The notes: generated from the sequence alone by a model not told the origin. A DNA stretch of 64,000 bases from Chthonomonas calidirosea T49 (GCF_000427095.1 NC_021487.1:1390924-1454923), one strand, 5' to 3'. Positions 125-27,122 are shown, numbered from the stretch's first letter. Numbers and translations are program-made.

Positions 125-3100
125 CTAAGGCTGAAGACTTGCTTTTGGATCTTGTAATGTAAAGTTTGAAGCATTGCTGCCCGTAAAGCTTATACTGCGC
201 AAAATGGGCAGTTGTAACAGATTCCCTACCGCATCCGTTTGGATTAAGGTTTCATGTGGCACCATACGTACGATGCAGCTCAACGGGTTGCCAAGTAGCA
301 GCGTTTGGTTTTGGAAGGGCGCTGGGCCGGGGCCTGGAGCATAGAGCCTTCCTGCATTTTGATATCCATTATAGATGCCGTTAGGCCCTGTTGCCGTCGC
401 ATAGTAGTCTATTCCACGTATCTCGAATACCTCTCCATGCACCTCGCCATCTCTTACATTGGGATAGTTCCCAAACGCCTCTACCACGTTATCTGGGCCG
501 GTGTAAGCGTTGGTAATGAGATAGTGCGGAACAAACCGCCCCAACACAGGACTGTAGTCGGCTTGCGGTAGGCGCTGAATGCTCACGGCATGAAGATGTC
601 GGCCGGTTAAATAGTAGTAGTCCGCATCGGTAAGCTGCCATACGATATCGAGGTTTTTTCCATCTGCATCCGGTGCTAACTCATAGCATCCGGCATTATC
701 CGCCAACAGATAATGAATGGTGCGATTGCCTGTTTTCGGGTCGGTGTAAGGAAACGCGCGGAAGAATACCGGATTGCTTACCGGTACATAGGAGACGAAC
801 TGCCCTTGTGCGTTATAGAGTTTAAGCTGGCTGAGGGAGGCGATCACATTTCCATCGGTATTCCCGTTTGGTCCAAAATAGCTGTATCGTGACAAAATCA
901 TGAGCGCTCCCCCCAAGCTTTCTTGATTGCTTAGCGGATCTGCAACCGTTTGTCCACCAGAGACCGTTGGTAAGCTAACATCGCTCACGGCCGCCACCAT
1001 ATCAATCTGGTTCGGATTGGTTGGATCTACGAACTGCTGTATAGTTCGATAGCGAAAACTCCCGTTTTGTTCCCCTAACGAGCGTGTGGTAAAGATCACC
1101 TGGTGATACATGGTAACAGCTGGATAGTTCGCGTTATTTGGCTGTAGTTGGATATACTGCCCTGTATTTGGGTTGAACACATCCACGATCTCGACAGCAC
1201 GGTAGTTTCCGGCGTCGGCTATCACGTAGTGAACTGCATAGTAAGGGCCCGTATAAGTATAGGTAACCCCAGTGATTCGGCTTAGGATCGTAATGGTGCC
1301 GTTTGTTTGACTATCGGTATAGATTTGGGCATCGGTAGGATGATTCAGAGCCAGCGGCTCTCCGGGGCGAAGCGCCTGAATGTCGTTATTGAAAGTCGTT
1401 ATCTCTTGCAGCACGGTACCAGAGGGGTCAAATACAACAACGCGATTGTTGCCCGAATCGGCCACGACATAGTTTCCCTCCCCCAGTTGACTCAACGATG
1501 AAGGTTGACGGAAGGGCACTCTTACAGCGCTTATTGTATTCCCGTTTACAGAAACCGCTTGGGTAGTGTTGAGGCTCCAGACGGCGTTGCCACCGGCATC
1601 TACCTCCAAAATGCGATTTGCATCGGCCACAACGGTCAACTGATTGTTCAAGGCGGCAATGCCGGCTCCAGAGCCGACGGCCACAATGCCCTGAGCTGCC
1701 GCCGGTGGGTTGATCACAACTTGTGTAAGTGGACTTCCGTTGCTCGGATTGGTAAGAGTGGTTATCACACGAACGCTGATTTTGCCTTGTTGAGCGGCGT
1801 TCAAATCCACGGCGGCGATACGTCCATCTACCGTGCCGTAATAGAGCGTTTGCGCGGCAACCGTTGGCCCCGAGGCAGGAAGCGGTGTAGCCTGAACACC
1901 AAAGGTGGGTATGAGCAGGTACCAAGCCAAGTTATCGAGCGGGCCGAAGCCGTTACTGCCATAAATTGCCTGGCGTACCCCTGTATTGCCCAAAGAGATG
2001 AAGATAGGTAGCGCTGTATTGAAGGCATCAATGCCATTGATCGGCCGCATGTTTAAAATACGGATGGCCGTTACAAACACTTGGCCGTTTGTATCGGTCT
2101 GTGTATCTAGCGTGTAGCCGGTGCCGGCCGGAAGCGTAATATAGGCAGGCGACGTACTGGAGTTAACGAAATCGGGCTGCTGCACAGCCAATTGAACGGG
2201 TGCGGCCGTCGGTGACGTTTTGTAGAGAATAGGAGGGTTCAATGGTACAATAGGGTTGATCTGGCTGTTGAGAGCGAGGATAGCTGTAAATTTATCCCCA
2301 TTAGCATCGGTAGCCACTCCAACCACATACACCATACCGCTCTGTAGCGCAGGCTGTCCTATCACACGAAACTGGACGATAGGCGCTTGCACATTGGTAG
2401 TTGGATCGGTATAAACCAACCTTGGACGAATGGTGTTGCCGTCGAAAGTGCCTCCATACATCGGTGAGAACATCCAGTTAACAACCTGCCCGGAGGTAGG
2501 GCCGCTTAACGTTGAGTATTGGCCGGTAACACTGTAGATCCGATCGGGAAGCGGATTGCCCGCGATCAACACCTTGTCCGTAAGGCCTTGCGGTGAGGAA
2601 GCAAAAACAGCCGCTCCCTGATTATCCAGCACAACTCCGCCAGTAAGATAGTGTGGAGAGGAGACAGAGCTTTCCGGATACAACGTAAACGTCCGCCGCT
2701 GAATGAAGATCTGCATATCTTGTTGGCTTGGGCTTATACCGTTGATCGCATCTCCCGGCCAATCGAGTGTGTAATCCACGCTGACCGTGCGAACGATATG
2801 GTTTTGGGTATCGTTCAGTAGAATCCCATTGTTCGCGTTGAAGGTCACTACCATTTGATGTCCGCTTGGCGAACCGGTTCCATCGGGAGGAGGAGGACCG
2901 TTGTAGCTCACTGTAAAGACGCCGTCACTGAGGTGATAGGTTTTCACATCTATGACATTACCTGTAGTCGTATCGGTTTCGGTAACGTGTACCACAGGTG
3001 TCAAGTCAAGCGTGTTAGCACCGCTTGGTGCAGTGACATACCACGGCACCCAGGCGCGCGCGCCGTGCGGCTCAAACTGAAAATTAAGACCGTTTTTAGG

Positions 3101-5041
3101 TTGGTCTACCGGCTGTAATGGCTCATTTTTGGTTGCGAACCAAAGCCCCACGATTTGACCCTGCGATGCAGGCGCTCCGTTTGGCTCGGCTTGCGCAGCC
3201 GCATAGACCACTTCATCCTCTGCTCCAGTCTGTTGATCGGGCACCCATCCAACCGTCAGTGGCCCGACAAGGTCGGCCAATCCATTTGCCAAGGCGCTTG
3301 GTGCTACCGAAGGAGCTACCCCATTTGCGTTGTTAGAAAAGGCGTTAACGGTTTGCCCTGCCTCTAAGGAACCCAAAAGATCCACGGCCACCACGTGCCA
3401 GGCATGACCGGCATCGTTGTTGGCATTATCATAGACCGGTGCAAAAAGCACCCCTCCAGCGTAGGCCGGTGCAGGTACCGGAAGCGGTTCAAGAAGCGAG
3501 GTCGTGTCATCAATGGCCGCATCGGGCTGCCCAGCCTGCCCTATCTGAAAGAGCAACGGTGAGGTGGACTGCAGAGGCCCGGGGAACCCGGGCAGCGCAT
3601 TAAACACACCGGTTACCCCTAACGAGTTTGTAACAGCACATATCTCCACAGTTTGACCGTTGGCTGGGTTCGTTACCGAAGCTAATAGCGGTGTGGCGTA
3701 GCGACCGTTAGCCCCTAAAAACGTGTTCCATATCTCATCATAGGGAGTACCGTACACGAAGTCGGGAATTCCATTATCAGAAAAAAGGGAAAAACCCGTT
3801 AAGGCTTGCCCCGGATGCAGGTTATAAACGTGAAGTCCGTTGTTTCCGTCTACATAGGCGGCGACGTTCTGGTCGATGGCCACTCCGGAGCCAGGATTGG
3901 GAGGATTGTTTAGAGGCACGGTAGCCCAAGCCGTCTCCAAGTTCGCTCCGATGATCTCTTGGGTGGACGCATCGCGATGGGAGTTGGCATTTGCAGCCGG
4001 CATCGCTCCTGTCCACGCGGCAACGTTGTAGGCAAACTTAAGCGGTGTGGTGGGAACAGCGATCACGGTATCACCGCTAACAGCTCCATCGTTGGCGCTG
4101 CCCGTGACGCTGATGGGATTTGGAGCACCAAGAGCTGCATTGATCGCCGCCGCAATGCCAACACCGGAAAGCAGAATATGGCCAGCCCCATAGTTGCCCG
4201 CATAGACAAAGGGAACCGTGGTGCCCAATAGGGGGGTCACCGTGTGAGGGTCAACAAGCCCTCCTCCTAAAGCGGTGAAGATGCTCCCGCTAAAAGTATG
4301 CACAAAGTTCGCCGTATCCGCTACTGAGAGCGGATAAGGATCGTTGAAAAGAGTGGAGAGCGGTTGTAGGATATTGAGCGAAAGGCTATCCGCTGCAGAT
4401 GTTAGCTGCAACGGAAAAAGGAAGTTACCCCCATCGTTGGTAAAGCCGGCAGCTCCATCGTTCTCTATCCAGAGGATTCCCCCTGAATCCACAAACTGGC
4501 GCAGTTTTTCGACCTCGTTTTCGTCGAACTGAATTGTGCCTGTCCCTAAACGACCCCCTTGCAGCGGAAGAAAAGCTATATTATAACTATCAAGCGCTTG
4601 TTGGCTTATCGTGTCGAGATCTTCTTCCCAATAGGCACCCATATTTTTGCTAACGGGTGCACCTACACGAAAGATGAGGGACTGGGGTGTGCCGTTTTGA
4701 AAGGCGGGGTCAGGATTGATCTGTCGTGCCAGCCAACGATTATAGATGTCCTGAGTGATCGTAGAGGGAGCTAGAGGGTTCACGAACTGCCAACCCGCCG
4801 GTTTATAGTCCGTACGCGCATCAAGAGCATAGAAGAGATAAGGCACCGGATCGTTCTTAATAACTTGCCCATTCGCCACCCGCGAAGTCGCGTTGGAAAC
4901 CAACACGCACGCCTTGATCTGCCGGGTTTGTGTGGTGTAGCGTGTGGCATCGGCAGTCGCCATAGAACAAGACAAGATAAGGGCTAACACCCCTAGCAAC
5001 AGCCCCATTAAAAGTTGTAGCGGAGATATTTTGTGTCTCAT
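125..5041 (-). CDS. Very large secreted protein in the PilY1 position, propeller-like C-terminal half
   Basis: A protein of about 1638 aa with an N-terminal signal peptide (MRHKISPLQLL, then a Leu/Ile/Val core ending in ATA-DA). An in-frame ATG at 5089 would add 16 residues; I prefer 5041 because the signal peptide then has a normal n-region and AAGGA lies about nine bases upstream, although 5089 is only eight bases after the preceding stop. Roughly residues 145-210 look like an alpha/beta GATase-like fold (FVDSGGILWIENDG). The second half has repeated strand-rich units such as GNYVVADSGNNRVVVFDPSG, which resemble NHL/beta-propeller blades. It directly follows PilV-, PilW- and PilX-like genes, the slot held by the tip protein PilY1 in other type IV pili. 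No PilY1 signature was recognised, so a tip or adhesin role is inference from position and architecture. Confidence 0.72.
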   Translation of the reverse strand: MRHKISPLQLLMGLLLGVLALILSCSMATADATRYTTQTRQIKACVLVSNATSRVANGQVIKNDPVPYLFYALDARTDYKPAGWQFVNPLAPSTITQDIYNRWLARQINPDPAFQNGTPQSLIFRVGAPVSKNMGAYWEEDLDTISQQALDSYNIAFLPLQGGRLGTGTIQFDENEVEKLRQFVDSGGILWIENDGAAGFTNDGGNFLFPLQLTSAADSLSLNILQPLSTLFNDPYPLSVADTANFVHTFSGSIFTALGGGLVDPHTVTPLLGTTVPFVYAGNYGAGHILLSGVGIAAAINAALGAPNPISVTGSANDGAVSGDTVIAVPTTPLKFAYNVAAWTGAMPAANANSHRDASTQEIIGANLETAWATVPLNNPPNPGSGVAIDQNVAAYVDGNNGLHVYNLHPGQALTGFSLFSDNGIPDFVYGTPYDEIWNTFLGANGRYATPLLASVTNPANGQTVEICAVTNSLGVTGVFNALPGFPGPLQSTSPLLFQIGQAGQPDAAIDDTTSLLEPLPVPAPAYAGGVLFAPVYDNANNDAGHAWHVVAVDLLGSLEAGQTVNAFSNNANGVAPSVAPSALANGLADLVGPLTVGWVPDQQTGAEDEVVYAAAQAEPNGAPASQGQIVGLWFATKNEPLQPVDQPKNGLNFQFEPHGARAWVPWYVTAPSGANTLDLTPVVHVTETDTTTGNVIDVKTYHLSDGVFTVSYNGPPPPDGTGSPSGHQMVVTFNANNGILLNDTQNHIVRTVSVDYTLDWPGDAINGISPSQQDMQIFIQRRTFTLYPESSVSSPHYLTGGVVLDNQGAAVFASSPQGLTDKVLIAGNPLPDRIYSVTGQYSTLSGPTSGQVVNWMFSPMYGGTFDGNTIRPRLVYTDPTTNVQAPIVQFRVIGQPALQSGMVYVVGVATDANGDKFTAILALNSQINPIVPLNPPILYKTSPTAAPVQLAVQQPDFVNSSTSPAYITLPAGTGYTLDTQTDTNGQVFVTAIRILNMRPINGIDAFNTALPIFISLGNTGVRQAIYGSNGFGPLDNLAWYLLIPTFGVQATPLPASGPTVAAQTLYYGTVDGRIAAVDLNAAQQGKISVRVITTLTNPSNGSPLTQVVINPPAAAQGIVAVGSGAGIAALNNQLTVVADANRILEVDAGGNAVWSLNTTQAVSVNGNTISAVRVPFRQPSSLSQLGEGNYVVADSGNNRVVVFDPSGTVLQEITTFNNDIQALRPGEPLALNHPTDAQIYTDSQTNGTITILSRITGVTYTYTGPYYAVHYVIADAGNYRAVEIVDVFNPNTGQYIQLQPNNANYPAVTMYHQVIFTTRSLGEQNGSFRYRTIQQFVDPTNPNQIDMVAAVSDVSLPTVSGGQTVADPLSNQESLGGALMILSRYSYFGPNGNTDGNVIASLSQLKLYNAQGQFVSYVPVSNPVFFRAFPYTDPKTGNRTIHYLLADNAGCYELAPDADGKNLDIVWQLTDADYYYLTGRHLHAVSIQRLPQADYSPVLGRFVPHYLITNAYTGPDNVVEAFGNYPNVRDGEVHGEVFEIRGIDYYATATGPNGIYNGYQNAGRLYAPGPGPAPFQNQTLLLGNPLSCIVRMVPHETLIQTDAVGNLLQLPILRSISFTGSNASNFTLQDPKASLQP

Positions 5042-5097
5042 AGCCGGTTTATCCTTATCCAACACAATGCCCTCTTCTTCGGCCCTCATAGGAATGC

Positions 5098-8000
5098 CTA
5101 GCCTCCGAAAGCAGTAAGATAGCTCAAGTTGTCAGTATCCGTCGGGTCGGTTCCGATCTTTGTCGAGTTTTCACCCGCGTACAGATAGTTTGGACACATA
5201 GGCAGATCGGGAATTGGTGGTAGTGTCTGAATAAACGTGTAGGGTGTACCGTCGGCCCCTGTTGTTTGAATGATGTTCACCCGCAAAGCTCTCTGTCGCC
5301 GTAGAAGCGCCGAGTTAGCCAAAGAAAGGTCGGTAGCATGATAGTAAGGCATAGCTAGGATCGGCGCATACTCGTAGCGCAGGCCGTTGGTTATGGCCAG
5401 TGCAGGGTCGGCAGTGACGTTTTGCAGATAGTTGGGGTTTTGTTGTTCCAGGGGAGTACGATAATCTATCGTATTATCCTGTCCTGGATCGTACCCTTCG
5501 AAAGGCGCGTTCGGGTCGTCAAAATCTCTGTTGTAGAGGTGATCATCCGGCACCTGAACACGTGCTGCCGTGTTCTGGTAGTAGGCCGTCGAGCCATAGT
5601 ATTGTGGAATATAGCCCCAGCGATGCATCCAGGCGGCCTGATCACCCTCCGAGGCTGTATAGTTCTCTGCTATTGCGCCCCAAATCGTGATGCGCACATC
5701 GGGTGGTTCATCGTAGAACGGAAACACATCCTTCGACGCGCGTTCCGCCGATGGCGTTGAATTGGCCAAATCCGCGATATCTTGCGCGTTATAGGAGACA
5801 CGCACGTTATTGCGCGCCAGATAGGCCGACCGAGAATCGTTGGCATCCGGATTAAAAGCATAGCCCGGTATCACAAAGAAAGAGCGGTTTTGAGCATAAA
5901 GTAAGGCCTCGATGCGTACATCAAGCGGGGTGATCATCGCCGTGCTCAGCTGGTAGTCGCTACCGCTGATCCGCGAACCAGAAAGCTGTTGTGCCGTCTG
6001 ATCGAACTGGAAGCGCAAGAGATTATCGTATCCAGGAGAGTTAATCGGTGGATAGTTTTGAGGGGCAAAGAAGTTATTGGAGGAAAAAATGCCGGGATAG
6101 CTCGGCTGTGGGCCATTGATCAAAAGTCCGATCTGCTGGAAGCGCGGTAGAATCGACGAATCATCTAAAGGTAGCCCCGGAACCTGCGGTAAAATCCCCA
6201 AAGCACCTGTCGGCGACGGGCTATTGCCGAACCCTAAGAAGAACGGAAAAAGATAGAGAGCGTTGTTAGGATTGTTGGTAAGACCTGGATTTACCAGCAG
6301 GTTGAAGAAGGTTGGGTTTGGGCCTGTTGCCGCATGACGTATCATAAGGAAGATAGGTACAGGCTGCCCGTTGGAGGTATATGTGGATGGGTTGACCCCC
6401 CAGTTAAACTCCATATCCAAATAGGGTAACGATTCGCTTCCCACCCCAATGGGAGTAGAGAAGATCGGCAAATCTGGGTTCACCCGACTAAAGACATTGG
6501 CCGAGACGGTGCGCATGAACTGCGTGGTATTTACACAGACGTAGTCCTCAGCAAGGATAGCGCAAGTAGATGCGTGCTCCATATGAATGCCGCCGTTCGC
6601 ATCCACATAGCCATCGCCGGCCACTACGCTGCCGTCAATATAGGCTGTACCACGGGTTACCAGAGTGATATGAACTCGCGCAAGTTTGCTTACCGTGGCG
6701 CTCTCTGTCTTATCTTGAACATTCGTGATCGCTCCATAGACGCCATGAACGATGATATTACCCTCGGCAAACAGAGTTAGATTAACTCCATAGGCATTTG
6801 GATCACCACCTATAGCGGGCAAGCCGGCAGCCTGACGCGCTGTAGGGTCATCTCCATCATGCGGCAGAGGCGGCAACCCCATCTGCTTTCGTGCATAATC
6901 CCACAGTGGAATAGTGATACTACTCCCGGCAGACGAGCCATCCGGATTATAAAATACTTTGCCATCATGACGTCGCAGTCGAATAGCATTACCAAGAAGC
7001 GTCACCTCTACCCCTGGCGGCACGTAAAATGGCCCATTCCAGTAGTTATGTACCGCTCCGGGGTCTATCCAATTAGCTCTCAACGAGTAGCCGCCATTCA
7101 CTCCCGGTACACCGGTCTCTTTCTGCAGATCGGTTTGATTATCTATGTAGATATTGGAACCTAGCCCATACTGCCCTGTATTGAACTGGCTACCGTTTGG
7201 CAAGCGGACTAAAAAGCCCGAGTTTTTCGCGAGCACGCGATAGCGAAGATCGGTACTGTTGTAGAGATCGGTATCGAGACTAGGTGGGTCGAGGCGCGGA
7301 ACACTGCGGGTAAATCCATTGGCATCGCTAGAGCCGGCGGCATCTCGAATGATGCCACCATAGGTGTTAAACGCAAGGTTCTGTTGCTGAACCACAATGC
7401 CATCGGAGGGGATAACGGCTCCTCCGTTATTGTTTGGGGATAGCAACGTCGGCGGCAGATTGATGGGCTCGTTAAGATAGGCAGGAAGCGCCGTGTCGTC
7501 TAGGGTAGAGTAAAAAGCCTGCGGGTGGTTAGAGGCCACACGAATTTTGCCGTTTACGAACACCCCCTCCTGAATCACCCCGGGGTTGCCACCCCGATGG
7601 CTCTCATAAAGATAGGTATCCCCCCCAAAAGTGAGATCGCCGTTACAGTAGATAGGAAAGCCAAAGAGGGAAAACCGTTGGTTGCCCACCTGTGCAGCCC
7701 CATTGGCATATGGAGCAAAGCCGAGCATGGGGTTGCCCAGCACGGTGGCTGGGTAGGCACCAATAGAGGGTGTTCCCACATAGTTTGGCACAGTACGTCG
7801 GTCTTTACCGGTAATATAAAGCCCATAGTCTGTTAGTCCAATCTCTTTATAGGCCACCAGCTCGCTTCGTAGGGTGGGCGAGTTGCCGTTTGGGACGAAA
7901 ACGGTTGGGTCACTGCCGGGAGGATTAGGAAGTTCTCCAGGGCGCCCTACCGATTCGATGGTGAGGGCTTGACCTAAAGGATTGTTCGGGTTGGGATCGT

Positions 8001-8364
8001 AGGCCACACGTACCAGGGCACGCCCACCCTTCATGAGAATGCGGGAAAACCCACGAATCAACCAGAAGTAATCGGGGTCGGTAGGGCTAACAGGAGGGGT
8101 TGGATTAGGACGCCAATCCGCCCCTTCCAGACTACTATTGAGCATGGTATTGCAATAGTCCAAACCGGCTTGAGCAAGCTGTCGCGCCTCTGCCGAATCG
8201 CGACTGTTGCCAGCAACAACGAGGTTGCGAGCGATGCGAGCTACGAAAAGCCCCCCGATCACCAGCAAGAAGAACATCACCGCCAAGGCGATGACGAGTG
8301 TTTGGCCGCGTTCGGCAGTGCGACGCTTAAAAAAGCGATCAAAGGATATCTTCGGATTGGACAT
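5098..8364 (-). CDS. Giant PilX-like pilus assembly protein
   Basis: About 1088 aa. Near the N-terminus comes RGQTLVIALAVMFFLLVIGG, a short basic leader and one hydrophobic helix of the type seen in PilX N-terminal domains, without the strict GFTLIE motif. The remaining 1000 or so residues are Gly/Asn/Pro-rich and strand-like, with a middle part (VHGVYGAITNVQD, AYIDGSVVAGDGYV) suggestive of beta-helix or PilX-like extracellular repeats. PilX proteins are usually near 200 aa, so this one is about five times longer. An upstream GTG at 8427 would extend it by 21 residues but has no ribosome site; ATG 8364 gives a compact leader and is preferred, though its Shine-Dalgarno is also weak. It follows the PilW-like gene by about 80 bases and precedes the large secreted protein. 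Confidence 0.75.
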   Translation of the reverse strand: MSNPKISFDRFFKRRTAERGQTLVIALAVMFFLLVIGGLFVARIARNLVVAGNSRDSAEARQLAQAGLDYCNTMLNSSLEGADWRPNPTPPVSPTDPDYFWLIRGFSRILMKGGRALVRVAYDPNPNNPLGQALTIESVGRPGELPNPPGSDPTVFVPNGNSPTLRSELVAYKEIGLTDYGLYITGKDRRTVPNYVGTPSIGAYPATVLGNPMLGFAPYANGAAQVGNQRFSLFGFPIYCNGDLTFGGDTYLYESHRGGNPGVIQEGVFVNGKIRVASNHPQAFYSTLDDTALPAYLNEPINLPPTLLSPNNNGGAVIPSDGIVVQQQNLAFNTYGGIIRDAAGSSDANGFTRSVPRLDPPSLDTDLYNSTDLRYRVLAKNSGFLVRLPNGSQFNTGQYGLGSNIYIDNQTDLQKETGVPGVNGGYSLRANWIDPGAVHNYWNGPFYVPPGVEVTLLGNAIRLRRHDGKVFYNPDGSSAGSSITIPLWDYARKQMGLPPLPHDGDDPTARQAAGLPAIGGDPNAYGVNLTLFAEGNIIVHGVYGAITNVQDKTESATVSKLARVHITLVTRGTAYIDGSVVAGDGYVDANGGIHMEHASTCAILAEDYVCVNTTQFMRTVSANVFSRVNPDLPIFSTPIGVGSESLPYLDMEFNWGVNPSTYTSNGQPVPIFLMIRHAATGPNPTFFNLLVNPGLTNNPNNALYLFPFFLGFGNSPSPTGALGILPQVPGLPLDDSSILPRFQQIGLLINGPQPSYPGIFSSNNFFAPQNYPPINSPGYDNLLRFQFDQTAQQLSGSRISGSDYQLSTAMITPLDVRIEALLYAQNRSFFVIPGYAFNPDANDSRSAYLARNNVRVSYNAQDIADLANSTPSAERASKDVFPFYDEPPDVRITIWGAIAENYTASEGDQAAWMHRWGYIPQYYGSTAYYQNTAARVQVPDDHLYNRDFDDPNAPFEGYDPGQDNTIDYRTPLEQQNPNYLQNVTADPALAITNGLRYEYAPILAMPYYHATDLSLANSALLRRQRALRVNIIQTTGADGTPYTFIQTLPPIPDLPMCPNYLYAGENSTKIGTDPTDTDNLSYLTAFGG

Positions 8365-8443
8365 AGTTTTTTCGTCTATTCGACCCAAAACGGTTCGAAA
8401 AATCTTGATGATACTAGCAGTAGCCACTCATTTAGAAGACATT

Positions 8444-10525
8444 TTAGCGCTGAAGGTTCCGCACGCGCACCTTAGAGACGAGACTGGTATCTTGGGCTGT
8501 CGCCGAAGAGGGGTCAAACAGGCGCGCGTTCAGCACCACGTCTATCAGGCTACGCGTACGATAGTTCACCTTCACCACATCCGAAGGCTCGTTGAGCTGG
8601 AACTGATAGGTCACTTGCACCGGGTCGGCAGGCACATCCTGACCGTTGACGACCTTCTTTGTAGGCAGATTGTGCCGATAGAACAGGCCGTTGACTGGGT
8701 CATCACCACCAGAGGATTGTAATGTCTCCGGCTGGTTATCAAAGGCGATATACCCCACCATAAGACGTGGGTCGTTTGAATTAGAGCCCGGCAGCGGCAC
8801 ATAGTTGATTTTATACTGGTTCGGCCCTATCACGTCTTGGCTCGATGGCACTCGTGTGTACTGAATGGCGTAGCCATAGTGGGCACCGGGGCGCTGATCG
8901 GGTCCAACAACGACCTCGCTTCCAGGCACGATCTCCGGCGTTACTCCCACCGAATTCAGGAAGTATCCAAGCGGAGACACGGTACTAGCGCGTTCCGCAG
9001 GTGCGCCACTGAGATCGGAGAGTAGAATGTAGCGTGAGTTATAGGTTCCGCTATAGCCCGCATTGATATCGGCAGGGAAATAGACTTGCGGCCCCTTATA
9101 GCCGCTCTGCAGGTTCAGAACCCATTGCGGAAACGCGAAATTGACGAGTCCGGACACAGGGTCTACGGTAAAAGCGAACTTTACATTCAGGTTCGTCCAA
9201 AAACCGAGAGGATTTGGATCGGGCCCAATATCAGTAAGCGTCGTGGGGTCTGGAGGTTGCGCTCCCTGATTAACCGTCTGCGCTACAATGTGTCCATTCC
9301 CGGCCGCATCCACATAGTACTGGAAGTAAGTCAACGGATTTTGGGAGAGGGGATCCGCACCAGGCGTGCTTGAACGATAGACGGAAACCCCATAAGGTGT
9401 GGCCCAGGCTCCATACCTTGCCTGATAAAGAGGAGGCGCAGAGTAAGGCATCTCATCTCCTGCAGCGCTTGCACTCATGGGGGTTGCCGCTTCGTTTTGC
9501 ACCGAGGAGGGAACGAAGCTAATGAGAAGATGAGGTGTCGGATGCCCATTGGCATCATAGACGATGTTGCCGTTGTTATCTCTATCAAGATAGATAGCGT
9601 CCCCTTTATTGGCCTGAATCAGGTTTTGCGCCAGGGCAGCCCAGTTCTCCCAGCGATAGACCACCGTTGTTGGCATTCCATAGCGTTCGGCGATCTTCTG
9701 CCATCCCGGCACGCCCCATTTCGGGTCACCCGTATCTCCTGCTCCTGCTTTTGTGGCATCATAGAAAAAGTTTGGATCGTCAAGGATGAGGGGATCGGTT
9801 TTCGTGTCGGTAGGCGCGTTTGGGTTTGTACCGGTATGCAGTAGAGAGAGATTGGGAATGAAAGTACTTGGGTTATCCGGATCGGGAATATAGGGGGTAA
9901 ACTCTACCCGATAGAGTGTCATTCGGTTATCTTTCGGGGCAAGTTGGGGATCCGTCCAGCGATTGGCATAGCCGTGGTAGTTTCCTTGGCCATCTACCGG
10001 CATGCCGCTCTGTTGGTAACCGGAGGTATCCACACCTGAGCGATTATCATGCAGCCCAATAAAGAATCGTGTTATCGTTCGTCCCGGCGCCAAAGGCAGC
10101 GCGACCTGGGCACCGGGCACAATGGGCAGACCGGTGGTCGGGTCTATCGGCTGGTTCGGGTTATTGCCCTGCTCACCCTGAAGGCCTGGAGCGACAAACT
10201 CGATGAGACCATAGGGAACAGAAGTGAGGTAGGGATTTCCTTTTTGGTCGTAGAGCCAGAGATTGATTTTGGTTTGAGGTGTGTTATTGTCGTAGACAAA
10301 AACCGCGTTTGAAAGCTGAGTAGACAGTTCCCGTAGGGTATCACGAGCTGTATCCTGGCTCTCGATCTGCGTGCTGGCACGGTTCACAAGGTTAAAACCA
10401 TCTATGAGAGGCTTCGTGATGATCACCAATAAGATAGAGGTAATGGCGATCACCACAAGCAGCTCAATCAGCGAGAATGCCTGTATCGCTGTACTTCTTC
10501 TCTTTGAATAGGTCCCTACCATCAT
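8444..10525 (-). CDS. Large PilW-like prepilin
   Basis: About 693 aa. It starts with a short basic leader and the type III signal segment [20 protein letters not shown], with Glu at +5 after the expected peptidase site, so it should be a substrate of the prepilin peptidase encoded at 14938-16002. The helix continues into residues ISQDTARDTLRELS-like N-terminal alpha1 sequence, then a long strand-rich globular part of over 600 residues. PilW/GspJ proteins are normally 200-350 aa. I chose ATG 10525 because AAGGAG lies six bases upstream; a longer frame to 10609 would overlap the preceding gene and lacks a better start. The gap to the preceding PilV-like gene is 32 bases, consistent with one operon. 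Confidence 0.8.
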   Translation of the reverse strand: MMVGTYSKRRSTAIQAFSLIELLVVIAITSILLVIITKPLIDGFNLVNRASTQIESQDTARDTLRELSTQLSNAVFVYDNNTPQTKINLWLYDQKGNPYLTSVPYGLIEFVAPGLQGEQGNNPNQPIDPTTGLPIVPGAQVALPLAPGRTITRFFIGLHDNRSGVDTSGYQQSGMPVDGQGNYHGYANRWTDPQLAPKDNRMTLYRVEFTPYIPDPDNPSTFIPNLSLLHTGTNPNAPTDTKTDPLILDDPNFFYDATKAGAGDTGDPKWGVPGWQKIAERYGMPTTVVYRWENWAALAQNLIQANKGDAIYLDRDNNGNIVYDANGHPTPHLLISFVPSSVQNEAATPMSASAAGDEMPYSAPPLYQARYGAWATPYGVSVYRSSTPGADPLSQNPLTYFQYYVDAAGNGHIVAQTVNQGAQPPDPTTLTDIGPDPNPLGFWTNLNVKFAFTVDPVSGLVNFAFPQWVLNLQSGYKGPQVYFPADINAGYSGTYNSRYILLSDLSGAPAERASTVSPLGYFLNSVGVTPEIVPGSEVVVGPDQRPGAHYGYAIQYTRVPSSQDVIGPNQYKINYVPLPGSNSNDPRLMVGYIAFDNQPETLQSSGGDDPVNGLFYRHNLPTKKVVNGQDVPADPVQVTYQFQLNEPSDVVKVNYRTRSLIDVVLNARLFDPSSATAQDTSLVSKVRVRNLQR

Positions 10526-10557
10526 TTCCAGCTCCTTCACACTAGGCAACAGAGGGT

Positions 10558-12573
10558 CTAGAGCGTGCTCTGTCGTGTCAACACCGTGTCCCGATCGATA
10601 CGCCGCCACAAAATCGCGTTCGGACTGCCCGGGTCACTCCAAACCACGCGACTACGCACTGATATACCGGACACATAGTCCACGGCTCTTCCTGTCGGCA
10701 CAGCCGAAAGGGCGGTCGCATTGGGAATTTGATCGGTGATATCTGCGTAAACGTATCGCGCCCCATTCACCACATCCACCCTATTGACGTCGCTAATCTG
10801 CAGCGTCACGTTATGAGCAACCCCATAAGTCGTGGGATCGTTGGGGTTCGTGTTAGCGGTTGCGTAGTGAAGCTCACCGATGGTGATCGTCTTACCGGCC
10901 TCGCTGAGAGCAAAGTAGATCCGAGTCGGCGAAGAGCCATTGGTACCATCCCCAATCCAACAGCTTGTCGAAGTGATTTGAGCAGGGCTGCTCACTATAG
11001 AATAGTAGGGGACTGCCATCTGTATCTGCATTCCCCAGCGCCTGTCGGCTCTATAGAAGATACGTATGGGAACGTTCTGGAGGCCGTTGTTTTCGATGCC
11101 GGGCTGGCTAAAGGTTAAGATACCGTTCTTTGCATCCAAAGTGGCAGCGACAAGACTACCCGGGGTGCTCTGTCCGGCCACAATGCGGCACAACTGTTGC
11201 CCGTTATCCATGTCCTGCACGATCAGGTCGGCATCATCTGGAGCGGTATCGGCAGGATCGTTATGAAAGAGGCCATTATAGGTGGTTTGATCGGGCAAGA
11301 TATCGCCTTGAGAAAGAATATGCCCTAATGCGAGACGGATGGTATAAGGGGCTTGGCTTGGAATGACCGAGTCGTCCCGAATGATGTGGTTATCATAGGT
11401 CAAGTAGTCCACGTAGGCCACAAGATTTTGAGGCTGTGCCAATGTCCCGCTGGCCGTTGGTGTGGGTGAAGAGATATGCCCGAGCGGATTGAAGATCAAC
11501 ACTCCACGATTAGCATTATTCGGCTCTTGAGGGCTCAGCCAGGCATATTCATAGGGGTCATCAGTGAACGGCGGGTTCGGCCCCGGTGTCGTGGAGACAA
11601 GCCGGAACTGGCGGCTTACCTGCTCGCTGTAAGGGTCAATGTTTGGCTGCGGGGATGTATTTGGAAAAATAGGTTGCCAAATAGGAACGAGCGGCTGACC
11701 GGCCGGAATATCAGGCACAGTAATTGTTATGGTTTGGGTTTGATAGGTGCTGGGAATTGGATAGCCATTGGCATCCGTCTGATAGGTTCGATAGCGCATG
11801 AAAAAGAGACGAAAATTGGGCCGATTTTCATTTGGATTGGGTGCCGGACGTGGATAAAAGGCGATCTGGTTGTGCGCGTAATCAATCGCGTACTCGTCAG
11901 AAGCGTTGAGCACGGGAATAGGGTTTGGATTGTTAATGTTGGGCTGCGAATCCTCCACGAGGCGGGTCATTGGAGGACCGTAAACGTTAAGACTGTCTGC
12001 GGGGTTTCCATTGCTATCGGTATGGAACACGTTATAAACAGGGCCGTATTGTAGAATATGGATCGAGCCTCCAGCCCCACTAGCCTCCACAGGGATAGTA
12101 AACGATTCCCCTTGAATGTAGCGAATGCGATTGACATCGGAGAAAAAGTAGGGCAGATAGCCGGCAGGCAGGGTGAAATTGTACTGTGCCTGAAGGGCGC
12201 TTAACTCCTGCGGTGTCGCCGGGCTGAGGTCGTCTGGGTTGGTACCATTAAGCACCTGAATGGTGCCATCCGCTTTAGGTAACGCGGAGAGCACGGCAAT
12301 AGGAGGCCCCTCCATATGGCGCAGGCTGGAGAGTTGCTCGTTAGCCAAAATTTGTGCTACAGACATTTCGCTGGTACGCTGCAGCACAACGAAGCCACCG
12401 GGGAAAAGGCTTACCAGAGAAAGAATACCGATGGCTAATATCACCATTGCCACCAGAGTTTCGATAAGTGAAAAGCCACGCCTACGCAAGCGGGCCTTAT
12501 TTGGGGTGTCTAAAGGAATCCGCCAAGCAAGTCGTTTCAGGGGCGGTTCCTTATAGGAATAAGACGGTTTCAT
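10558..12573 (-). CDS. Large PilV-like prepilin
   Basis: About 671 aa. A 30-residue basic leader is followed by RRGFSLIETLVAMVILAIGI, the PilV/GspI-type prepilin signal: Gly-Phe at the cleavage site, Glu at +5 and the LVAM-ILAIG helix. The residues after the helix (LQRTSEMSVAQILANEQLSSLR) match the alpha1 helix of minor pilins. The C-terminal 550 or so residues are a strand-rich region with no recognised domain. ATG 12573 is preceded by GAGAAGG about nine bases upstream. Classical PilV is about 180 aa, so the extra part is the main oddity; it may replace a separate adhesin or scaffold. Upstream lies a 434-base untranslated stretch. Confidence 0.8.
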   Translation of the reverse strand: MKPSYSYKEPPLKRLAWRIPLDTPNKARLRRRGFSLIETLVAMVILAIGILSLVSLFPGGFVVLQRTSEMSVAQILANEQLSSLRHMEGPPIAVLSALPKADGTIQVLNGTNPDDLSPATPQELSALQAQYNFTLPAGYLPYFFSDVNRIRYIQGESFTIPVEASGAGGSIHILQYGPVYNVFHTDSNGNPADSLNVYGPPMTRLVEDSQPNINNPNPIPVLNASDEYAIDYAHNQIAFYPRPAPNPNENRPNFRLFFMRYRTYQTDANGYPIPSTYQTQTITITVPDIPAGQPLVPIWQPIFPNTSPQPNIDPYSEQVSRQFRLVSTTPGPNPPFTDDPYEYAWLSPQEPNNANRGVLIFNPLGHISSPTPTASGTLAQPQNLVAYVDYLTYDNHIIRDDSVIPSQAPYTIRLALGHILSQGDILPDQTTYNGLFHNDPADTAPDDADLIVQDMDNGQQLCRIVAGQSTPGSLVAATLDAKNGILTFSQPGIENNGLQNVPIRIFYRADRRWGMQIQMAVPYYSIVSSPAQITSTSCWIGDGTNGSSPTRIYFALSEAGKTITIGELHYATANTNPNDPTTYGVAHNVTLQISDVNRVDVVNGARYVYADITDQIPNATALSAVPTGRAVDYVSGISVRSRVVWSDPGSPNAILWRRIDRDTVLTRQSTL

Positions 12574-13007
12574 CGTCAATTGCCTTCTCCCAGGCGCCAC
12601 CACGGCAGCGCTAACACTGTTCTCCCTAAACTCCTGTTTTTCCTTCTTTTGAGACTACCGCACCGCAAAAATTGTTCCATATTCCGAATCGGCCCTGCGC
12701 TTATCTTAAACTTGGGCGCTCGAACCCGCTTACGGTCCTAATTCGCTCCTGGATGAAGATAAAGTGAAAGGGGTATCTTATGCTGTGCGTCCTAGCGAAC
12801 GATGTTTTTGCCAACAGCCACTTTCCCCTCACGGCCGGTATGGGGTTTCTAGAAAACCCACAAAACGTTCTGAGGTAAAGCACCATTCCCTCATCGAGGG
12901 AGGAAGCAGATATCCCAAATGGCCAATCTTCCCGCACCAGGGAAAAGGAGGAAGCCCGTAGGGGCACCTAGCTGAGTTGCCCCTACAGAGGCGAGCGGTA
13001 AACGCTT
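12574..13007 (-). other. 434-base untranslated stretch inside the pilus cluster
   Basis: This gap separates the upstream pseudopilin gene from the PilV-like gene. It contains a hairpin near its high-coordinate end (listed separately) and a short minus-strand open frame (12701-12967) with no ribosome site, no recognisable protein features and overlap with the hairpin region, which I do not call. I find no convincing -35/-10 pair. A long leader for the PilV-like operon or a separate promoter without consensus elements remains possible. Confidence 0.4.
12958..12986 (-). terminator. Hairpin after pseudopilin gene
   Basis: A perfect nine-base-pair stem (GTAGGGGCA / TGCCCCTAC) with an 11-base loop lies 21 bases past the stop of the minus-strand pseudopilin gene at 13008. 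The sequence beyond it on the minus strand is pyrimidine-rich (CTTCCTCCTTTTCCC) but not a clean U-run. It probably terminates or attenuates transcription from the core pil genes before the large minor-pilin genes. Confidence 0.5.
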
Positions 13008-14021
13008 TTAGTGATAGTTAAGAGGCAGCTGCTGTTGTGCCTGTTGCAGACTTATTTTTCTGGCCGTGCCGGAAAGCAACAACACAATGACGTTGCCAGA
13101 ATGAGCCACCCCCGCATGATAGGTGTTCCATGTAATAACGGTGGTTTCAGGAGACGGATTTTTGTATTTTAACTGATTACTCAATACCACTGGCGGATTG
13201 GATGGCAGCCCGTATACAGGCACCTGCGCCGTAGTATCACATCCATTTTTTTGATTATACAGTTGGTGAGTCCAGTCCACCGCATAGTGATACTCATAAA
13301 GAGGGTTTCCATTGGCATCGTGCATCCAGTTGCCATTGCTATCCAGCAAAGGACCAATATCCATGCTATCCATAACATAGAAGAGCTTGGGTTGACCCAC
13401 ATACGTGGCCCCAGGGTTAGGGCCGTTCGGTTGTCGTGTCGGCAGATCAGGATCAGAATAGTTAGGACAGGCGGGTGGTGGATTGGTGTTGTTATTTCCC
13501 TGTACCCATGTAACCGGAACGAGTTGGCCATTCGTCAGTGTAAGCGGCCAGTAGGCGATCGTCACTTGTGTTTGGTTGTGTGTTGGGTTATCAGGACAGA
13601 AGAAGGCATTCAGGTCTTTTAATTTGTTCGGATAGAGGTAGGCACCTACGCCTGTAGCCTGAAAATACTCGGTTGCCTGCCCCATCGGCACAATAGGGTC
13701 ACCAGGAAGCGCCGGTTCTCCTGATGGCATTCCAGGTTGGACGTTCGTCAGCGCCGTTTCAGCGTAGCCAAAAAGGGCTGGTGGATAAGTTCCCTCATCC
13801 TCATGATAGAGCCGAACGGCCTCATATACATCGTGCATATTACCCATCGTCGTCGCTTGGCGGGCCTGCTCCCGGGCAGCCGCGAATACCGGAAAGAGAA
13901 TGGCTGCCAAGACAGCAATGATCGCGATGACAGTAAGAAGTTCCACCAACGTAAAAGCACGTACTGCAGTTGTGTGCGACTTTCCAGGCATTTTTACCCC
14001 CATTTCGCTGCTCATGCACAT
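13008..14021 (-). CDS. Type IV pseudopilin, degenerate H-X9-DG family (paralogue 1)
   Basis: About 337 aa with the prepilin signal AFTLVELLTVIAIIAVLAAI followed by LFPVFAAAREQAR, typical of H-X9-DG (DUF1559-like) pseudopilins. The start is set by AAGGAGG seven bases before ATG 14021; in-frame ATGs at 14003 and 13991 lack this. The body contains DIGPLLDSNGN and HYAVDWT, shared with the next gene's product, showing that the two are paralogues. Near the C-terminus the family hallmark reads H-SGNVIVLLL-SG, that is H-X9-SG, with the usual Asp replaced by Ser. It lies 60 bases after the paralogous gene and downstream of the prepilin peptidase, so it is likely a structural or minor subunit of this pilus. 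Confidence 0.85.
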   Translation of the reverse strand: MCMSSEMGVKMPGKSHTTAVRAFTLVELLTVIAIIAVLAAILFPVFAAAREQARQATTMGNMHDVYEAVRLYHEDEGTYPPALFGYAETALTNVQPGMPSGEPALPGDPIVPMGQATEYFQATGVGAYLYPNKLKDLNAFFCPDNPTHNQTQVTIAYWPLTLTNGQLVPVTWVQGNNNTNPPPACPNYSDPDLPTRQPNGPNPGATYVGQPKLFYVMDSMDIGPLLDSNGNWMHDANGNPLYEYHYAVDWTHQLYNQKNGCDTTAQVPVYGLPSNPPVVLSNQLKYKNPSPETTVITWNTYHAGVAHSGNVIVLLLSGTARKISLQQAQQQLPLNYH

Positions 14022-14081
14022 TGGCAAGCCTCCTTGCAGCTTTTTGTAGTTTCTATTGGACTCACCATGATAATGACGTTG

Positions 14082-14852
14082 TCACTGGGCGAATTTGAGC
14101 GGCCCCTTTTGCGCAAAAGTTTTTGCATCCACCGCCTTTGCGGTACCGTTTAGGAAAATTACGAGCGTTTTGTCTACTCCATTCACTGCAGCATGATAAG
14201 TACACCAAGTGATAACCGTTTGCGATGGGTTTGCTGTCTCGGCATACTTAAGTTGGTTCGGGGCATCCCCAGGCCCCGATGCACCTGTCCAGTCCAGACT
14301 GTAGTGCAGTTCGTAAACGTAGCCGCCTGCATTGCGCACCGGATTGCCGTTGCTATCCAGTTGAGGACCGATATCGTATGAGTCGAACGGATAGTAGGAA
14401 GCAGCCGTCCCTACCGGCAGCGTCACAGCGTTGCCAGCATTATGCTGCATGAGTGGCGTGTAGACAACCGGCTGGTTCGCTAATGTCGAGCTAGCAGTGG
14501 CCGGGTACACGACCTGGTTAACGGTGAGAGTCTGGTTGTTAGTCGGGTTGTCAGGGCAGGAGAAAGTGGCGTCACTGTTGAGAAGCTTGGCACCAAACAG
14601 AGGTTTATAGCCAGATATGCCTGCAAACTGCCATAATACAGGTGGATACAAATGATTATCCGTTTCATAAAGCCTGAGGGCTACATAGATATCGTGCATG
14701 TTGGACATGCAGGTCGACTCGCGAGCCTGCTCCCTTGCCCTACTGATAACAGGAAACAGAATAGCGGCAAGTATGGCAATAATGGCTATGACAACAAGCA
14801 TCTCGATCAGCGTAAAGGCCGATCGACTCTTTTGAACAGATGGCAAAAACAT
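14082..14852 (-). CDS. Type IV pseudopilin, degenerate H-X9-DG family (paralogue 2)
   Basis: About 256 aa. The N-terminus [20 protein letters not shown] is a canonical prepilin cleavage and methylation motif with Glu +5, followed by AREQARESTCMSNMHDIYVA. ATG 14852 has AGGGGAG eight bases upstream; the longer open frame reaching 14981 would overlap the prepilin peptidase gene. It shares YDIGPQLDSNGNP and HYSLDWT with the neighbouring pseudopilin and ends with a TYHA...VIFLNGTAK segment that corresponds to the H-X9-DG region but lacks the DG. It lies 85 bases after the peptidase gene. It could be the major subunit or one of a pair; the sequence does not decide. Confidence 0.85.
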   Translation of the reverse strand: MFLPSVQKSRSAFTLIEMLVVIAIIAILAAILFPVISRAREQARESTCMSNMHDIYVALRLYETDNHLYPPVLWQFAGISGYKPLFGAKLLNSDATFSCPDNPTNNQTLTVNQVVYPATASSTLANQPVVYTPLMQHNAGNAVTLPVGTAASYYPFDSYDIGPQLDSNGNPVRNAGGYVYELHYSLDWTGASGPGDAPNQLKYAETANPSQTVITWCTYHAAVNGVDKTLVIFLNGTAKAVDAKTFAQKGPLKFAQ

Positions 14853-14937
14853 GGCACGAGCTCCCCTAAAAACTCCCTCTACAGAAGTATAGCACGCCTC
14901 CGTTGAAGTTTGACGACGTTTGTCTTTTTTTGGTTCC

Positions 14938-16002
14938 TTATCGGGAAAACGCATAAGCGAGATAGGCGTTGACCAGTGCATTTCCCCAAAACAGTGTTAG
15001 GAAGAAGCCGATTACAAGAAAAGGGCCGAAGGGAATGGCTGTGGGCGCAGGCACCCAATCTTCGGCTGCGGGGTTCTCTTGGACTACCTTTTCCCCCCTC
15101 CATCGTTTCCAAAGATCGCCTAGATAAGCCCAAAGGTCGCCCAGGATAAGGCACCAAACGATAGCCCAAACCTCGTGAAGCAGATAGCCTGCTGGGCTAA
15201 CATGCTCGCCATCTTGTTCTCCCTCGGCCAAGGCTAGCTCCTCTTGATGGTTCGATGAGCGATGCCTCCGAAGATAGATTAAAACAGGCCCTACGATGAG
15301 ACCTGCCAGGCACGATAGCACTACCCACACCGGCAGCAGCCGCAATGGATTTTCACTATGTGTCACCTGTAGGGCGAGCATGGCGCCCATGCCGCGCCCT
15401 AATAGCACGTCTCCTAACCCCATGGCCTCAACGCCCTTCCAGAGCCAACCTAAAATGCGGATGCTTCCGAAAAGGAGCGTCCCGATAACGGCACCCCAAA
15501 TCGAAACCGGCAGCCATCCTCCTACAAACGGATGGATAGTGGCATGACGTCCCCATTCGACAAGCTCTAGCCCTATCGGAATACAGAACAGAAGGATGTT
15601 CAGCGTGTCCGGTATGGTAAAAGTTGCCAGGTCTATAAAAAACACCGGTATCAGCACCGCCGTATATGCCAGTAAAGCAAGGCAGATCAGTGCTCCCTCT
15701 TCCATAAAGCGTAGCACGACAAGGGTGAAGAGAACGCCGGTCAGCAGCTCTACCCCGAAATAGCGCCATGCGATGGGTTTTCCGCAATAGCGACATCGGC
15801 AACGCAGTATCAGAAAGCTGAAAAGGGGGATCAGATCGAGGGCTCCTAAGCGATGTCGGCAATGAGGACATATAGAAAATCGCGGTTCTAAAAGCGATAG
15901 TCCTTTCGGAAGCCGATAGATAACTGCGTTAAGAAAACTCCCGATAGTGATGCCACAGAGAAAGGCAACGCCTCCTAGAAACCAGAGGGGCACAAAGATC
16001 AT
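14938..16002 (-). CDS. pilD: Prepilin peptidase (type IV leader peptidase, A24 family)
   Basis: An integral membrane aspartic protease that cuts prepilin leaders and methylates the new N-terminus. The N-terminal part holds the cytoplasmic zinc-binding domain with two CxxC pairs (CPHC, CRYC). The two catalytic aspartates are in FFIDLATFTIPD and in the GxGD motif GLGDVLLG; the usual Lys after GxGD is absent. About 354 aa from ATG 16002; a TTG at 16029 would add nine residues but neither has a clear Shine-Dalgarno. Unusually for the family, a hydrophilic stretch of about 60-70 residues (rich in Glu, Arg, Trp) lies before the last membrane span. Its substrates are presumably the five pilin-like proteins encoded next to it and the two at 56.9 and 58.5 kb. 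Confidence 0.9.
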   Translation of the reverse strand: MIFVPLWFLGGVAFLCGITIGSFLNAVIYRLPKGLSLLEPRFSICPHCRHRLGALDLIPLFSFLILRCRCRYCGKPIAWRYFGVELLTGVLFTLVVLRFMEEGALICLALLAYTAVLIPVFFIDLATFTIPDTLNILLFCIPIGLELVEWGRHATIHPFVGGWLPVSIWGAVIGTLLFGSIRILGWLWKGVEAMGLGDVLLGRGMGAMLALQVTHSENPLRLLPVWVVLSCLAGLIVGPVLIYLRRHRSSNHQEELALAEGEQDGEHVSPAGYLLHEVWAIVWCLILGDLWAYLGDLWKRWRGEKVVQENPAAEDWVPAPTAIPFGPFLVIGFFLTLFWGNALVNAYLAYAFSR

Positions 16003-16052
16003 GGTGTTGTTTCTAAATTCTTGAGTCAACTGCTAGTTCTTAAGTTAACTGT

Positions 16053-16111: not shown

Positions 16112-17344
16112 TTATTCGCCACCGCCGCCACCGCTTAGGTTGGATACCACCTGAATGAGCGGCATGAAAAGGGCAATGACGATAAAACCTACGCAGAACC
16201 CCAGGAACACGATCATGATCGGCTCGATAGCCGCCGTGAGCGACTGGAGCTGCGCATCCACTTCGCCCTCGTAAAAATCGGCCACCTTTGTCAGCATGTG
16301 ATCGAGCGAACCCGATTCCTCACCAATGGAGATCATGTGCACGACCATCGGCGGAAAGAGTCGGCTCTTCTCTAAGGGATCTTTAATTCGTTCTCCCTCT
16401 CGAATGCGCGCTCGTGCCGCCATAATGGCATCGCTGACAATGACGTTACCCACCGCTCCGGCCACCGTCTCCATCGCTTGTAGAATGGGCACGCCAGCGG
16501 AGAGCAGCGTTGAGAGCGTGCGGGCAAATCGTGCCAAAGTGACCTTGTGGATCAACTTGCTGAAGACGGGTATCCAGGAGATTTTGAAGCGGTCAATGAA
16601 CCTCCGACCGGGGCGGGTACGGCCTAGCATCTTGATGGAAAACCACACGAGGAAGATGATCAGCAGCCCGATGTACCATTTGCTCTTCAGGAAGTTGCTG
16701 AAGTCCACCAGAACCTGCGTCATCCAAGGAAGCTCTTTTACTCCCAGATCCTTAAATAGGTCTATGAACTTCGGCACGATGAAAGTGGTTAGCCCCAACA
16801 CGATGAGCACTGCCACGATCACGACGATGGTCGGATAGGTGAGGGCCGATTTTACCTTACGGCGCAGCTCCATATCCTTTTCGAGGAAGTGTGCGAGGCG
16901 TTGCAACGACTCCTCAAGTACGCCGCCGACCTCCCCAGCGCGGATAAGCCCGATGAAGAGGTTATTGAACACGGCAGGGTACTTCGACATGGCCTTTGAG
17001 AGCGTAGAACCGCCCTCTACCTCCACTTGAACCTCTTTGATAATGCGGCGGAGCTTGGGGTTTTGGGTCTGCTCACCCAACACATCGAGCGTACGCACTA
17101 ACGAGACGCCCGCGTCAATCATGGTAGAGAACTGGCGACAGAAGATGGCGACATCGCGCAGCTTTACACGGCCAAAGCCGGTGCCTGACGTGGTTCCTTT
17201 TGTCTTACCTGTTTTCTTTATTGTGGTGACGCGGAAGCCTTGTTCTTGCAGACGACGCGTGAGGATCTCCTCGCTCTCGGCTTCCGACGTCCCTGTGCGC
17301 ACGTTGCCCGTGGCATCACTTACGGTGTACTGAAAGATAGGCAT
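16112..17344 (-). CDS. pilC: Type IV pilus inner-membrane platform protein PilC (GspF family)
   Basis: 410 aa, the normal size for PilC. It has the N-terminal region found in PilC (MPIFQYTVSDATGNV), then two GspF cytoplasmic helical domains at about residues 70-195 and 270-395, each leading into membrane spans (for example TIVVIVAVLIVLGLTTFIVP and IMIVFLGFCVGFIVIALF). Family knowledge places it in the inner membrane, coupling the PilB and PilT motors to pilin insertion or removal. The C-terminus is a Gly-rich tail (GGGGGE). ATG 17344 has AGGAGG overlapping the region of the pilT stop, only 10 bases upstream, so it is probably translated together with pilT. Confidence 0.95.
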   Translation of the reverse strand: MPIFQYTVSDATGNVRTGTSEAESEEILTRRLQEQGFRVTTIKKTGKTKGTTSGTGFGRVKLRDVAIFCRQFSTMIDAGVSLVRTLDVLGEQTQNPKLRRIIKEVQVEVEGGSTLSKAMSKYPAVFNNLFIGLIRAGEVGGVLEESLQRLAHFLEKDMELRRKVKSALTYPTIVVIVAVLIVLGLTTFIVPKFIDLFKDLGVKELPWMTQVLVDFSNFLKSKWYIGLLIIFLVWFSIKMLGRTRPGRRFIDRFKISWIPVFSKLIHKVTLARFARTLSTLLSAGVPILQAMETVAGAVGNVIVSDAIMAARARIREGERIKDPLEKSRLFPPMVVHMISIGEESGSLDHMLTKVADFYEGEVDAQLQSLTAAIEPIMIVFLGFCVGFIVIALFMPLIQVVSNLSGGGGGE

Positions 17345-20495: not shown

Positions 20496-20608
20496 GGTAG
20501 TTATCTCCACCCTATGCGTGTTCGTTTTGCTTCTATCTCTTCGCGCTGCGTTCGAACGCAGGTACCACAGAACGGCGCTTGCATTTACTGCTGTCAAACG
20601 CTGCGCCG

Positions 20609-26892: not shown

Positions 26893-27122
26893 ATTGACCT
26901 CCTTTCTGCATTGAAAAAGACGAGGCTTCAAGCCAGTTTTGGGAGAGTATTAGTGACGGTTTCTTTGACACCCAAAAAGATAAAAAGTTACAGAAAATAG
27001 CCTGCAGCCTTCTAATCTCCTCCAGGTTCAGCGGTATCCAACCTCCATCTGTAAGGAGTCTACCAGTATCACTGCCATCAGCCCCTGCCTTCACCTTTCG
27101 TACCCAAATGCGGCCATCAAAA

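Follow-up and report, generated by a model that had tools for sequence, protein, structure and literature searches.

Whether a pilus tip can be built from giant minor pilins and an equally oversized non-pilin partner is the question raised by four consecutive genes of Chthonomonas calidirosea T49. The genes lie in the 64,000-nucleotide stretch of DNA analysed here (the window), positions 1390924-1454923 of the 3.438-Mb single-contig genome, and a first-pass annotation had read them as a pilV-pilW-pilX-pilY1-like set. In Myxococcus, it is PilY1 together with minor pilins that primes and caps the pilus (PMC7541494). Large domains are also carried by modular pilins, of which over 1,200 are known in 264 architectures and which show off their grafted domains, probably at the tip (PMC8179133).

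Results

On the minus strand, the gene order is shikimate dehydrogenase, pilB, pilT, pilC, pilD, two pilin genes, four genes that we call V, W, X and Y, and a fifth gene lying just past the window's edge. The machine genes encode the assembly ATPase PilB (18732..20597, 621 aa; MshEN and T2SSE domains; TIGR02538 at 5.2e-190 and 632.8 bits, below the equivalog cut-off of 675.65), the retraction ATPase PilT (17355..18635, 426 aa; TIGR01420 at 508.7 bits, above the cut-off of 319.1), the platform protein PilC (16112..17344, 410 aa; T2SSF at 5e-70; best NCBIfam match PilC at 1.9e-128, below its cut-off) and the prepilin peptidase PilD (14938..16029, 363 aa; A24_N_bact and Peptidase_A24, both above cut-off). 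PilT and PilD thus exceed their family cut-offs, and PilB and PilC are strong matches below NCBIfam equivalog cut-offs. A candidate major pilin (14082..14981, 299 aa; N_methyl at 2.2e-8) and a second pilin (13008..14027, 339 aa; N_methyl at 1.1e-4), both with GspG-like N-termini, complete a cluster in which PilB, PilT, PilC, PilD and pilins stand together, as in type IVa pilus systems. PilM (TIGR01175 at 212.8 bits, above 133), probable PilN/O and a PilQ-like secretin (PF00263 above cut-off; TIGR02515 PilQ at 157 bits, below 284) are encoded at 1533-1540 kb, so that the type IVa markers PilM and PilQ are also found in the genome.

The four genes of interest sit where they were first placed, all on the minus strand, and the lengths originally given correspond to ATG starts within the longest open reading frames: V, 10558..12603 (681 aa; 671 aa from the ATG at 12573); W, 8444..10609 (721 aa; 693 aa from an internal ATG); X, 5098..8427 (1109 aa; 1088 aa from an ATG); and Y, 125..5089 (1654 aa; 1638 aa from an ATG). 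The proposed pilV-pilW-pilX-(pilY1) order is likewise upheld, as that of a type IV pilus minor-pilin operon beside pilBTCD. The operon does not stop at position 125: the fifth gene, a secreted 2703-aa open reading frame, belongs to it. Measured between longest open reading frames, the distances are -52 nt (V-W), 16 nt (W-X), 8 nt (X-Y) and -50 nt (Y-fifth gene, which overlaps the end of Y). Median gaps in relatives are 1, 6 and 4 nt for V-W, W-X and X-Y, and among named genomes these pairs are adjacent at 65, 65 and 56 loci, respectively; the 56 X-Y adjacencies place Y directly after the minor pilins, in the slot of PilY1. Relatives of V, W, X and Y align along their entire length. Because the order recurs with tiny gaps and relatives align throughout, we judge the four open reading frames to be real genes.

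Conservation extends across the Armatimonadota. Matches to X were found in 141 of 151 sampled genomes of the phylum and to the Y-slot protein in 112, among them each of the nine further family members and 9/10 of the order. Apart from a few genes masked by opposite-strand frames in our simple ORF picking, pilBTCD, the pilins, V, W, X, Y and the fifth gene follow one order in 24 armatimonad regions, one of them that of the window genome. The fifth gene lies directly 3′ of Y in 19 of the 24; among the other five, at least three end before its expected position and one has it 10 kb away. The possibility that close relatives carry unrelated large proteins in these slots falls, since the operon is conserved with homologues in each slot. 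A genome scan with the X alignment found 142 X loci, of which we kept 80. Where the title gives a phylum or class, these are armatimonad with a single exception (L171, labelled Propionibacteriaceae UBA6122); this is probably a mislabelled genome bin, since its X is 63% identical to those of L145 and L147. The lengths of V, W and X covary over 47 loci (rho 0.69-0.74, uncorrected for relatedness), a correlation that shared ancestry alone could explain; correlation with Y is weaker (X-Y, rho 0.42).

V and W begin as pilins, and the prepilin leaders attributed to them are confirmed. V carries RRRG/FSLIE (the slash marks the predicted cut) and matches the prepilin motif PF07963 at 1.4e-7, above cut-off. 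Its match to TIGR02523 PilV (1.1e-8, below cut-off) is confined to the 54 residues of the pilin N-terminus, aa 42-95, and such a match recurs in all 20 V relatives scanned. W carries IQA/FSLIE, reaches 21.1 bits against a PF07963 cut-off of 21.2 (2.3e-4), and is matched by the TIGR02532 prepilin domain and the N-terminus of TIGR02599; in its family A or G precedes FTLVE or FTLIE, and 23 of 24 relatives have the prepilin domain. Both proteins have the Glu5 of the prepilin N-terminus, and cleavage is predicted from the motif, which was matched in 83/87 V, 84/96 W and 88/96 X relatives. No full-length PilV or PilW family match was found, that of V being limited to aa 42-95 and W having no PilW match at all; similarity between V and W is confined to the pilin helix, and their C-terminal parts gave no recognised fold. 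V, W and X are so long because domains have been added onto the pilin N-terminus.

Two other classes of pilin-like gene sets were compared with V and W. Verru_Chthon cassettes are small pilin-like gene sets with one giant protein. Families A-D of this class correspond to TIGR02600, 02598, 02599 and 02596, and the N-termini of V and W weakly match B and C. Membership was rejected, with scores of 21.5 of the 51.4 needed for TIGR02598 and 29.4 of 256.5 for TIGR02599 and no match to TIGR02600 in the genome; we found no paper on these cassettes in the open-licence literature. The second class is that of the cyanobacterial Hps pseudopilins HpsB, C and D, whose genes hpsA-D bear consecutive locus tags in Nostoc (PMC10581220). 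W resembles HpsC, which is matched by 16 of 24 W relatives (best 1.3e-11). Hps proteins are tied to polysaccharide secretion; the armatimonad genes instead neighbour pilBTCD and two propeller proteins.

The HpsC matches, together with a weak GspI match in V and the reported occurrence of type II secretion systems in Armatimonadetes (PMC6668835), could mean that V, W and X are pseudopilins that stay in the envelope and serve secretion or polysaccharide export. We consider this very unlikely. The genome has its own type II secretion system at 208-218 kb, with GspD at 420.8 bits (cut-off 351.35) and GspG, GspH, GspI, GspJ and GspK of 142, 184, 139, about 303 and 597 aa, and the window cluster contains a PilT above its family cut-off. 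Since the genome has this separate set, with pseudopilins of ordinary size, we rejected the window cluster as the type II system of the cell, and the enlargement is therefore specific to the type IV pilus set.

X was expected to have a PilX-like helix, and a confident model bears this out. Its cleavage-type motif, RG/QTLVIA, lacks Glu5, as in PilX and GspK, and among relatives in which the motif was matched G is at -1 in 86/88. In an AlphaFold2 model of the window protein (63 sequences; mean pLDDT 84.2, pTM 0.88), a 56-residue pilin-type helix, alpha-1 (aa 43-98; 8134..8301), directly follows the predicted cut at G41; four strands (128-194), a very long insertion and late strands (1050-1068) come after it. 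Absence of a pilin-fold N-terminal helix would have counted against the pilin reading; for X, where this was tested, the helix is present. The combination of pilin helix and fold without Glu5 is that of the PilX/GspK type. By VIA-align, the first-ranked structure was Thermus thermophilus ComZ (Z 11.5, 268 aligned residues, 4.3 A, over residues 195-1081), the sole pilin among the matches listed; in Foldseek alone ComZ scored no better than E 7.5e-3, and the top matches there, glucanotransferases, were set aside as owed to a jelly-roll, the overall fit being poor. The X profile had no sequence similarity to any PDB chain, ComZ included; an hhalign comparison of the X N-terminus with GspK of the same genome gave E 1.5e-4 (probability 52%). 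ComZ has a GspK-like pilin fold whose last strand is separated from the one before it by a beta-solenoid (PMC6561018). The strand order in the model of X, as read from the strand list, fits such a plan, in which a solenoid would lie between the last two pilin strands. X is predicted to be a pilin carrying a large insertion, and is putatively ComZ-like.

ComZ, for which a tip position has been argued, binds DNA (PMC6561018), and it is conceivable that X is likewise a DNA receptor, in a competence pilus serving DNA uptake rather than surface adhesion. That the best fold match of X is this DNA-binding protein (PMC6561018) speaks for such a role, as does ComEC in the genome (PF03772 at 5.9e-54), although so common a protein is little proof. 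The Thermus competence locus as published consists of pilA1-4 and comZ (PMC6561018), whereas the operon here adds two very large propeller proteins. X also has an extra jelly-roll stretch (aa 638-834; 5926..6516) weakly resembling carbohydrate-binding modules; the likeness to the CBM6 structure 2cdp is borderline (Z 8.5, 118 aligned, 2.9 A), and at a Z of about 8 may reflect only a common arrangement. On balance we think a competence function rather doubtful.

The protein in the PilY1 slot is built differently from PilY1. Y has a signal-peptide-like N-terminus, and its domain content was read largely from relatives, 19 of 23 of which have DUF4159 at the N-terminus, six PQQ_2 and four NHL. In the window protein the DUF4159-like alpha/beta domain (PF13709 at 0.0013; best among relatives 1.4e-8) spans approximately aa 48-370 (3980..4948); we found no paper on DUF4159 in the open-licence literature. 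The fold was modelled on residues 299-1362 of a compact relative (G107; pLDDT 83.6, pTM 0.81) in place of window Y itself. Residues 24-674 of that model form an 8-bladed propeller with an insertion (Z 34.9 to the designed Cake8, about 30 to BamB), by which we place a first propeller at about aa 371-1140 of Y (1670..3979). A second, NHL-like propeller at about aa 1141-1654 (125..1669, limits inferred) is likely, because the last 390 residues of the model are nearly all strands and NHL-type repeats are seen by sequence: NHL at 7.5e-5 over aa 1193-1220, and a family profile that matches the NHL-type Pizza.

The remark that the fourth protein has no recognised PilY1 signature holds across the phylum: PF05567 has no match in the window genome and none above cut-off in 151 phylum genomes. 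Y might still be a true PilY1 whose propeller has drifted past profile detection. It occupies the same slot, has a secretion signal and pairs an alpha/beta N-terminal domain with a propeller; PilY1 proteins are known to differ at the N-terminus (PMC13190605). A DxDxDG-type loop, likely a calcium site, occurs in 46 of 56 Y relatives and is shortened in window Y. By eye, however, this loop follows a blade strand in a PQQ-type blade, a position that presumably differs from that in PilY1. The best matches of Y are 8-bladed BamB-type propellers, and the vWA-type DxSxS motif occurs in just 3 of 56 relatives. The matches listed for the G107 model are other propellers, and the absence of PilY1 (3HX6) among them is not diagnostic. 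Such extreme divergence from PilY1 seems to us unlikely. Y resembles PilY1 only in where its gene lies, in its secretion signal and in having propellers. For the fifth protein, Golvesin_C was found in 7/15 relatives and PQQ_2 in 3/15; no Pfam family matches the copy in the window genome.

Discussion

We propose that the cluster supplies an armatimonad type IV pilus with its priming and tip module, in which modular pilins present PilY1-like propeller adhesins, and we consider this probable. The proposal starts from observed genes, motifs, operon structure, conservation and domain content, and from predicted folds. V, W and X would be exported by Sec and cleaved by the PilD encoded next door, keeping their large grafted domains, and would be the subunits that begin the fibre, with X leading as for GspK and ComZ. 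Having primed the assembly carried out by PilB and PilC, they would remain at the tip. If X follows the ComZ plan, its beta-solenoid and other extra domains being placed ahead of the last strand of the pilin sheet, it could sit only at the fibre end. Y would dock on X and cap the complex, the job of PilY1 elsewhere, and bind surfaces, polysaccharide or other cells; the fifth protein would be a second propeller-bearing partner, larger still, and PilT retraction would pull on anything that the tip had attached to. We infer that the peptidase cuts these pilins, that they sit at the tip, that Y docks on X and that the tip adheres. The best reading of Y and the fifth protein is as adhesins that work like PilY1 and stand outside the PilY1 family by sequence, and the enlarged V, W and X together with the adhesin probably build an unusually large sticky tip. 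Against the tip-module proposal stand the absence of PF05567 above cut-off from Y in the phylum sample and its BamB-type 8-bladed first propeller, the lack of any PDB chain similar in sequence to the X profile, and the demand that so large a tip cross the secretin or assemble beyond it.

Comparison with known systems shows what is familiar here. The FimU-PilV-PilW-PilX-PilY1 sets of Pseudomonas and Myxococcus share the V-W-X-Y order beside a type IV pilus machine and a non-pilin propeller after X. In contrast, the armatimonad pilins are each several times larger, no FimU was assigned among them, Y lacks PF05567, and a fifth giant secreted protein is added. ComZ (PDB 6qvi) resembles X in its GspK-like pilin part, its place beside other minor pilins and, by the predicted strand order of X, its big late-inserted beta-solenoid. 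At about double the 507 residues of the solved ComZ chain, X shares no sequence similarity with it that we could detect, bears the added jelly-roll-like stretch and is followed by propeller-protein genes. Modular pilins of the Streptococcus sanguinis PilB/PilC class also graft a functional domain on a pilin N-terminus for display. The grafts counted in that class are recognised domains, and the most extreme cited protein has 860 aa (PMC8179133), whereas the armatimonads conserve three adjacent pilins of 500-1100 aa together.

The suggestion that a tip complex with large domains would be a new variant therefore needs qualification. Large and even giant tip pilins were already familiar as a kind, through ComZ and the modular pilins, as was the PilVWX-PilY1 gene order; what is new is the joint enlargement of the whole set, its phylum-wide conservation, and the filling of the PilY1 slot by a non-PilY1 propeller that has a further giant protein as partner. 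We found no published description of a giant armatimonad tip set in the open-licence literature. A stronger version, which we advance tentatively and with more doubt than conviction, is that canonical PilY1 has been replaced by an unrelated giant propeller pair mounted on three co-enlarged modular pilins, a convergent and phylum-specific solution of about 6,800 residues. To our knowledge, this would be bigger than any tip complex described.

If the proposal is true, a tip of well over half a megadalton is made from few genes, and the task of PilY1 can be met by a different propeller. The conserved tip proteins, some derived from thermophiles, are good subjects for structural work, and they sharpen the questions of how the PilX-PilY1 interface forms and how a large tip passes the secretin. 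The ComZ type of pilin would then extend from Thermus competence to the general type IV pilus operon of a phylum.

The operon of Y, the secreted, probably tandem-propeller protein in the PilY1 slot, includes a secreted ORF of 2703 aa on the minus strand, although this lies beyond the window (genome contig C1, 1382986-1391097; 4987-13098 of L009, a stretch of the same genome reaching beyond the window). The ORF overlaps the end of the Y gene by 50 nt, and PQQ-propeller and Golvesin_C domains were found in relatives of its product. This armatimonad operon is also present in L171, a locus encoding the giant minor pilin X, in a genome labelled Propionibacteriaceae UBA6122; this genome bin is probably mislabelled.

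GspK of the separate T2SS (597 aa; L200, 6389-8182, plus strand) has ComEA-type helix-hairpin-helix matches and also contains long stretches rich in Gly, Pro and Arg. Two minus-strand genes in the window encode an 882-aa protein (24283-26931) with a single fibronectin type III domain, the rest being without assignment, and a 1154-aa protein (27326-30790) combining a polysaccharide export domain with about seven SLBB domains, an unusually high number.

Across the 3.4-Mb genome the prepilin N-terminal motif has 58 matches, the majority in ORFs of 240-350 aa, and both pilins in the window are DUF1559-like. Fimbriimonas is reported to have 65 proteins with this motif (PMC4072686). The number of pilin-like proteins in C. 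calidirosea T49 is well above the needs of a single pilus.
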